This document shows, one piece after another, positions 19,089 to 21,726 of a stretch of 64,000 nt of DNA. Each line of letters starts with the position of its first letter. Positions within the stretch are counted from its first letter, which is position 1. The translations under genes and the position numbers were made by a program. Source of the DNA: Porphyra umbilicalis (taxonomy: Eukaryota; Rhodophyta; Bangiophyceae; Bangiales; Bangiaceae); assembly GCA_002049455.2 (NCBI GenBank), contig KV918761.1, positions 868,001 to 932,000 on the forward strand, written 5' to 3'. The notes under the pieces were generated by a model, which ran no database searches, was not told the origin of the DNA, and saw only the letters and a program-made list of their open reading frames with translations.

Positions 19089-21726
19089 CTATGTCGCACT
19101 CCGGCGCTGTGTCCCACGACCGCCATTGCCAGACCGGTCGGTCGAAGAGACGGTGGCACCCGACCGTCCACCAGCGGTGCGGCTAGACACATTGGACACA
19201 GACGGCCCCGACGGCGAGTCGAGCAAGTCCGCCGTGAGCCAGGGGTGGCAGAGGGCTTCCTCCGCGGTCAGGCGCTCGGCGGGGTCCTCGCGGAGGAGGC
19301 CTTGCAGCAGCGACTTAGCGTCCGAGGAGATGCGGTCCCACTCAGCGCCCACAGGAGAGAAGCGGCCCTTGCAGACAAGCTCTAGGGTCTCCTGGATGGT
19401 CTCTCCAGCAAACGGGTACCGCCGCGTCAGGATGATGTGCATGATGATGCCACAGGCCCACAGGTCCACGGGCGGCCCGTACATCTCCTCGCGCAAGACC
19501 TCCGGGGAAACGTAATGGGGACTGCCAACCTGCGACTGGAGTACGATACGAGACTGGGTGCGGACACCGACAAAGTTGGCCAACCTGTGGTGGGAAAACA
19601 AAAAGAGGCACAGGTGGCAACAATACAAAAGGCAACCAGTGGCGCAGAATGGTCAGACAAAGAACCACATGCTGCAGTAGACACACATGACGCACAATAA
19701 GCGCCAGCTATGTGAACGAAGCTGCGACACAGAAGTCGGGAGAGCTTGAGGACATACCCAAAGTCTACCAGCGGTCCAAATCAATCCAGTTTTGTCGACG
19801 CCGACCAATACGACACAGAGGAACCGTGAAGTATCCAGAAAAAGATAAAGCAGTCACGTCAGTACACCAACCCGGCGAGGGAAGACCACTACACACCAAC
19901 GAGGACACAATGGGTCAAGACATCACGAATGCACACCAAGCATGACGCGCTCACGCAGACGCAACAGGGCCCGTCCCGCCTTGTTGTCATCGCGCCCACA
20001 CCCCAGCACCTAGTCCCACGTACGAACCACAACGTACCTGCCAGCTTGACCGAGACGGGCAGCTCCCGCCGGTCGCAGAGGATGTTCTTCAGCTTCAAGT
20101 CCCTGTGTACCACCGACTTGGAGTGCAGGTACGCCACTCCCCGTAGGATGTCTCTCAGCACCGGCCGCGCTTGTGCCTCGGTGAAGCGGCCCGTGTGTTT
20201 GAGCAGGTCCGCCAGCGTCCCGCCCGGCATGTACTCAAGCACAATGTAGAGGCGGGTGCGAGTGTCAAAAATGTCGTAGGTGCGCACGATGTTGGGGTGA
20301 TTGACCGCCTTCATGACATTGAGCTCCCGCCAGATGAATTCGAGGCCCTGGGCATCATCCGACTGCTTCTCAATAACCTTGACCGCATACTGCTGGAGGG
20401 TGGTGCGGTCCAAGCCCATAACCACGCGCGCAAACGCGCCCTCCCCCAGCAGAGAACCCAACTCTGCAGACGGACGAATATATGCGAGGCAAAACATCCA
20501 GCCAACCGTCCACCGGAGTCGCAACGGTGAGGACATAGCAAGGAGTAAAGTGTCAGCCACTGCAACCCAGCCGAGACTAGGACCGAAAATGCATCCAGAC
20601 GCGTAACAACGCCAACCATCAGTCGACGCCACCAACACACAACCGGCCCCAACCACTCCGCCACGACAGCATGTAGCAAACAGGTGTTGGCGCACATCCA
20701 ACAGGCCCGGGGTCGCGGCAAGGACTGGACACGGTCGGCAACCAAGCCTTGACGCCAACGCCCAATGTCCAGCGCGAGAGAAAACAGCAAACAGTACCAG
20801 CATCCAGTCCGACCTAGCTCGGCCGACCCTCCGCCGCGTCTCAACAGCAGGTGTTGGCCCGACGCAACAGCTCCACTCGCCAACGTACCGTAATGCTCCT
20901 CAATCCTTCTAGATGAGGCCTTTTGCAGCGCATCCAGCCACGCCTCGTAGTCATCCCGCCTCGTGAGGAAGACGCGGACCGACCGGTCCGGGCACGTCAC
21001 GGTGATCCGCATGCGACGAGAGGAGCCCGACACGTCTGCACCGAGGACACTCTGTTCCCAGCTCGCTTGGGACGTCTACGGAGTGCCAATGACATGACCA
21101 ACAGTGAAGACGACCAAAGCGAAGCGCATGACCGACCGAACAGCTAGCACACGAGACACTGGAACGTCAGTAGCGTCATCTCCCACACGCAGTGGCCGTC
21201 GGCTTCCAGCACGTACCAACGACGAGCAACCCCCATAGATTCCGCTCGTACTGTCACGAACAGCCACCCAGAGACCGTCGTCATGCCACAGTGGCGTGAT
21301 AGCCAGCGAGGTCCTGGCAGCACAGCACACCACACGCCACAGAAGGCATGCACACATGGCATGGAGCAAGGCGCCTTGCTCGTACACATGGCAGACCAAG
21401 CCCTCCGAGCATCCGCCATCCAGTCACGCCCCGCCATGAGCACTCCCATGCCCGCTCCCGAATGACCAACCGCGCCCGCGACCAATGCCTGGTCCAAACA
21501 GCACCATCCTTTCGGCAGCGGCTTCACAATCACAACGACACATAGACATGCCACCCCCCTCCCCAAGCACACAAACATGTACAGAACGTACGTCCTTCAC
21601 GTGAGACGAGAGCACTTGAGCGGCCAGCTTGAAGTACCGCTTCTTCTTGGTGGGCATCACCCGGTTGCGTTTGAGCATCCAGCCAGAGAGGTCCTCGGGC
21701 ACCCCATGGCGAAAGTTTTCGGCCAT
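19089..21726 (-). CDS. PH-domain Ser/Thr protein kinase (CAMK-like), six exons
   Basis: Signalling kinase with an N-terminal PH domain and a C-terminal kinase domain. Exon 1 (21726-21592, [20 protein letters not shown]) and exon 3 (from about 21049 to 20889, [16 protein letters not shown]) make the PH fold. A short exon 2 (about 21202-21160, [11 protein letters not shown]) lies between, and its splice phases with exon 1 are not fully resolved. Exon 4 (20463-20038) has the Gly loop [17 protein letters not shown] and the catalytic loop [10 protein letters not shown]. Exon 5 is seven nucleotides and completes DFG. Exon 6 (19584-19089) has [23 protein letters not shown] and the family C-lobe. The 3-4, 4-5 and 5-6 junctions agree in phase, and most donors read GTACGT or GTATGT. 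The kinase should be active. The C-terminal tail is Ser-rich. CDPK/AMPK-like sequence with a PH domain suggests membrane recruitment. Confidence 0.85.
19758..19764 (-). other. 7-nt coding microexon (ACTTTGG) of the PH-kinase gene
   Basis: Flanked on the minus strand by ...GGTAG before and GTATGTCC after. The preceding exon ends KLA plus G (donor GTACGT at 20037), and the next exon starts G TTG GCC after CCACAG (19584). Joining gives codons GAC TTT GGG TTG GCC AAC, i.e. DFGLAN exactly where a kinase needs its Mg-binding DFG. No other reading supplies DFG. The introns are 273 nt and 173 nt. Confidence 0.85.

Follow-up and report, generated by a model that had tools for sequence, protein, structure and literature searches.

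A microexon of 7 nt appears to supply the Asp-Phe-Gly (DFG) motif of a predicted protein kinase in the window, the 64,000-nt stretch of Porphyra umbilicalis DNA analyzed here. DFG is the motif through which protein kinases bind magnesium, and in this gene it would be assembled from three exons: the microexon carries the second and third bases of the Asp codon, all of the Phe codon and the Gly codon up to its second base, and the missing bases come from its neighbors. We put the probability that this exon is real and normally included at about 0.83. The first-pass annotation had proposed a 7-nt exon at 19758-19764, at DFG and between GT-AG introns, and both its coordinates and its sequence are borne out (Table 1).

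Table 1. Predicted structure of the kinase gene (positions in the window; introns flanking the microexon only)
Feature	Position	Strand	Content
Exon 1, 135 nt	21592..21726	-	Start codon and first half of PH-like domain
Exon 2, 187 nt	20889..21075	-	Second half of PH-like domain; placed by frame and homology
Exon 3, 426 nt	20038..20463	-	Kinase N-lobe to ...VHRDLKLKN...VKLA; ends in phase 1 (G/)
Intron, 273 nt	19765..20037	-	GTACGTTG...GGTAG
Microexon, 7 nt	19758..19764	-	ACTTTGG; Asp-Phe-Gly together with flanking bases
Intron, 173 nt	19585..19757	-	GTATGTCC...CCACAG
Exon 5, 496 nt	19089..19584	-	LANFVG... activation segment, SPE, C-lobe, tail, stop

The gene runs on the minus strand from 21726 to 19089, and its joined exons form one open frame of 416 aa that ends at 19089. 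Around the microexon, exon 3 closes with GTC AAG CTG GCA G/gtacgtt at 20038/20037, the 273-nt intron extends from its donor GTACGTTG at 20037 to an acceptor ...ggtag ending at 19765, the 173-nt intron reads gtatgtcc...ccacag from its donor GTATGTCC at 19757 to 19585, and exon 5 begins with GTTGGCCAAC at 19584. The spliced reading is GCA GAC TTT GGG TTG GCC AAC, or A-D-F-G-L-A-N. Being internal, 7 nt long and bordered by GT-AG introns on both sides, the exon would belong to the ultra-short microexons, defined as internal exons of at most 15 nt with normal splice sites.

The predicted product is a Ser/Thr kinase of CaMK-like type, preceded by a PH-like domain at the N-terminus. With the microexon, the Pkinase profile (PF00069) matches at 257.9 bits over positions 1-263 of 263; without it, the match falls to 144.4 bits and ends at profile position 139 of 263. 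These scores and the 416-aa frame agree with the earlier claim that the microexon supplies DFG in consistent phase. The kinase domain of the predicted protein is complete and includes Lys, HRD, DFG and APE-like motifs; the glycine loop, the AVKV Lys, HRD and SPE can all be recognized. The best 60 matches among 2763 sequences of known structure include STK33, CDPKs, CaMKII and CASK; those alignments to solved CaMK-like kinases that were inspected continue through DFG. The PH domain profile (PF00169) scores 20.9 bits (E 5e-4), under the Pfam gathering cut-off of 25.1, and the N-terminal domain is therefore termed PH-like only. Placement of exons 1 and 2 rests on frame and homology: exon 1 is predicted from its open frame, its donor GTACGTTC and homology to paralogues, and the putative acceptor of exon 2 scores just 2.5 with our splice-site models. 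The frame of exon 5 is set by the microexon, and in that frame GC by codon position is 0.64/0.54/0.78. Directly downstream, on the same strand, lies a 466-aa adenylosuccinate synthetase frame (17209-18609, minus; PF00709, E 1.5e-171).

The fit of the microexon to the kinase exceeds chance. We used a purpose-written spliced profile aligner, with a profile of 16 kinases from elsewhere in the genome that left out the window gene. Restricted to GT/AG introns and unprompted, it placed introns at 20037-19765 and 19757-19585 whichever of the five intron penalties was applied, and two disjoint sub-profiles, one of 10 distant kinases and one of 6 PH-kinases, each recovered the identical exon. With this permissive scoring, masking the microexon costs just 5.2 bits; dinucleotide shuffling of the intron block equaled or bettered the true score in 11 of 1000 cases and restored A-D-F-G in 2. 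Scoring with splice-site models gives the true gene 335.0 bits and the gene with its microexon masked 310.5, or 24.5 less. Under these models 2000 shuffles had a mean of 308.8 (sd 5.0, maximum 336.6); one of them reached the true score, and none of the 2000 restored ADFGLAN.

Other arrangements of the same block were considered. Longer exons starting at 19764 that also keep the frame (34, 73, 82 or 106 nt; among 21 frame-keeping candidates) are less likely: they would insert extra residues directly after DFG, and the aligner favors the 7-nt exon over them. Retention of either flanking intron leads to frame loss or to a premature end. At the level of the genome (83.8 Mb), the YAGACTTYGGGTNNGT string occurs at two places, one of them the window locus, and a reversed control of the pattern occurs at none; at the second place (C190, L033) the aligner finds no kinase within 3 kb. 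Used as a DNA query, positions 19400-20200 match only themselves in a search that skips very common words. Comparison of the two flanking introns with each other gave nothing beyond matches of 8-9 nt.

Splice-site models were built from 28 of the 33 introns called in 20 split kinase loci, the other five having been discarded by eye as of low confidence. The usual donor form is GTAAGT, with A at +4. In the reference donors the +4 base is C in 19 of 28 (18 GTACGT and one GTGCGT), T in six (all GTATGT) and A in three; CAG ends 26 of the 28 acceptors. A search for U1 snRNA with the Rfam model found none, and the Rfam control likewise found nothing anywhere; a U1 pattern gave 0 matches against 4 chance matches for its reversed control.

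Strength ranks were obtained with the reference sites scored leave-one-out. The outer donor at 20037 (score 16.0) outscores 21 of the 28 reference donors, and the outer acceptor at 19585 outscores all 28 reference acceptors. At the inner sites, the acceptor at 19765 outscores 17 of 28 leave-one-out and just 3 of 28 uncorrected; it ranks fourth among the block's 11 AG sites, and two of the higher-scoring ones lie inside the introns. The inner donor at 19757 is weak, outscoring 1 of 28. Of the block's 54 GT sites it nevertheless ranks second, behind 20037 alone, and its form, GTATGT, is the second commonest in the reference set (6/28). The two intron lengths, 173 and 273 nt, are inside the range called in kinase loci of this genome, and the same two introns are richer in T than the gene's other two, with 32% (273-nt) and 38% (173-nt) vs 28% and 29%.

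From the genomic DNA we infer mRNA inclusion, splicing order, origin and kinase activity as follows. Two ordinary spliceosomal introns would flank the 7-nt exon, and both would be removed in most productive transcripts. Their removal is probably sequential, because an exon of 7 nt cannot hold both of its splice sites occupied at once. Inclusion of the microexon would then give an active kinase. As to origin, the two introns probably came to sit at neighboring DFG sites, each of which is used singly in other kinases of the genome.

Since the outer sites are strong and the inner donor is weak, skipping of the microexon is plausible. The predicted skipped form joins 20038 to 19584 out of frame, in keeping with the first-pass annotation, which had stated that skipping shifts the frame; it would encode 301 aa, with DFG, the activation segment and the C-lobe all missing. 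The stop codon of the skipped form, at 19427, is in the last coding exon, so decay under the exon-junction rule is not expected, and the transcript could yield a fragment made of the PH-like domain and the N-lobe. This layout lends itself to a regulated switch, in which condition-dependent inclusion would turn the kinase on or off and the 301-aa form might act as a decoy: strong outer sites (20037, 21/28; 19585, 28/28) surround an exon with a weak inner donor (1/28), the 453-nt skipping intron is inside the size range of the genome's kinase introns, and skipping shifts the frame. However, the inner acceptor has intermediate strength (17/28, leave-one-out), the weak donor may signify merely leaky splicing, and in plants the introns next to microexons are reportedly retained more often than the microexons are skipped (PMC8831610). 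We consider such a switch improbable, and constitutive or mostly constitutive inclusion more likely. Slightly less probable again is the broader proposition that red algae use a frame-shifting 7-nt switch to remove the DFG of a PH-type kinase and leave a kinase-inactive fragment. Regulated skipping, if it occurs, would switch the kinase on and off through splicing in a very direct way.

Two further readings treat the 7-nt match as accidental, and both fare worse than the switch. The gene could express a pseudokinase isoform in which a donor at 20027 or 20030 is joined in frame to 19584, with predicted joins LAGTLWLAN (20027) and LAGTLLAN (20030) that lack DFG. With the microexon masked, such in-frame joins are indeed the aligner's best choice, 20030 with GT/AG-only scoring and 20027 with splice-site models, and they need one intron fewer. 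But the donors score poorly (-11.6 for 20030 and 2.1 for 20027, vs 16.0 for 20037), the loss is 24.5 bits with splice-site models, though just 5.2 with GT/AG-only scoring, and the other kinase motifs are present, which speaks against a dead enzyme. This isoform is thus quite unlikely. Even less credible is a decaying gene that has lost its DFG exon and carries the 7-nt match by chance: the 416-aa open frame retains its kinase motifs, exon 5 has the codon-position GC given above (0.64/0.54/0.78), and the motif was restored in only 2/1000 shuffles in the looser test and 0/2000 in the stricter one. A microexon that is normally included is the reading we retain.

Comparison with other kinases of the genome provides a setting for the two introns. 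We surveyed 40 kinase loci selected for fragmented matches; for the second batch of 20, breaks near the motif were part of the reason for selection. The kinase set is incomplete, as 100 of 195 candidates were scored in one search and 125 of 277 in another. The 40 loci gave 68 intron calls and 29 internal-exon calls, some of them low-scoring, and one locus (L063) had no intron. The smallest internal exons called were of 29 nt (L035), 56 nt (L064, with low-scoring sites) and 58 nt. On inspection by eye the 29-nt exon was judged spurious, as the DNA there runs on as one frame that includes DLG and a long insert. L035 is itself a PH-kinase paralogue in which DLG replaces DFG and the activation segment carries the long insert. 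Within the 40-locus survey the 7-nt exon stands alone in its size, with the proviso that an aligner of this type may overlook tiny exons at other loci.

A single intron at DFG was found in 8 of the 40 loci (L042, L058-L061 and L065-L067), a count that is not a rate, as the loci were not a random sample. In L060, L061, L065 and L066, which we take to be MAPK-like from their motifs, the intron is identical in position and phase to the second of the two introns flanking the microexon. In L058 and L059 it interrupts the same Gly codon one base earlier. In L042, a PH-kinase, it directly precedes the Asp codon, at a distance of 1 nt from the first of the two flanking introns, and in L067 it falls within the codon preceding Asp. 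These kinases share a local site with the window gene, but each has one intron and no microexon. Five loci grouped as MAPK-like (L058, L060, L061, L065 and L066) have DLG in place of DFG, with their single intron within its Gly codon.

We infer that DFG is used repeatedly as an intron site, and that two adjacent introns of this kind gave rise to the microexon; the introns at these sites may be parallel gains or old. In a tree of 50 of the 57 kinase rows (L061, L063, L064, L065, L067, L068 and L069 were omitted as short or poor), the window kinase falls among the PH-kinases, without resolved placement, and far from the MAPK-like rows. The genome contains a family of such PH-kinases: among the window protein's best matches, several span both the PH-like and the kinase parts, some within one exon and others with introns at HRD or between DLK and PEN.

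Microexons of this size are documented in the green lineage. A survey of 10 plant species reports 2,398 microexons of at most 15 nt (PMC8831610). According to the same source, microexons of 1-15 nt in plants and green algae have lengths not divisible by 3 in about half of the cases, many are unannotated, their omission can shift the frame, T-rich motifs occur near plant microexons, and in Chlamydomonas reinhardtii Pkinase (PF00069) is among the top three microexon-encoded motifs. The exon described here is of the same size class and its flanking introns are T-rich, although four introns prove nothing in this respect; it differs in belonging to a red alga and in being predicted from sequence alone. 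A second parallel comes from plant GH32 enzymes such as chicory 1-FEH IIb, in which a 9-bp mini-exon is reported to encode Asp-Pro-Asn, an allele without it being described as putatively non-functional (PMC4477480). In both cases a tiny exon gives an essential active-site Asp. The enzyme families are different, however, and the GH32 mini-exon is frame-neutral, so that its loss removes three residues, whereas skipping of the 7-nt exon shifts the frame.

As kinase-domain microexons and an active-site mini-exon are already published, the present case is a striking example of a microexon, though not unprecedented in kind. The first-pass annotation had called so small an exon at a catalytic motif unusual. 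This holds for size, with no other credible internal exon below 51 nt among the 29 called in the 40 loci; it holds less well for place and kind, given the single DFG introns of 8 of these loci and the published kinase-domain and active-site microexons, as reported in PMC8831610 and PMC4477480. Our literature searches, with most subscription journals outside their scope, returned no earlier report of a DFG microexon, and a full-text search pairing microexon with red alga returned matches with neither term in title or abstract. For Pyropia yezoensis, another high-GC red alga, 0.3-0.7 introns per gene with an average of about 300 bp have been reported (PMC3594237).

Gene finders and ordinary short-read aligners are likely to miss a 7-nt exon, and a kinase such as this one would then be called truncated or dead. 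The case favors microexon-aware annotation in red algae, and it suggests a route to microexon formation through two introns at sites that occur singly in sister kinases. As a separate observation on the same genome, and as expected of a red alga, phycobilisome linker genes gave four matches on a 185-kb plastid-like contig and eight on seven other contigs, which are taken as nuclear.
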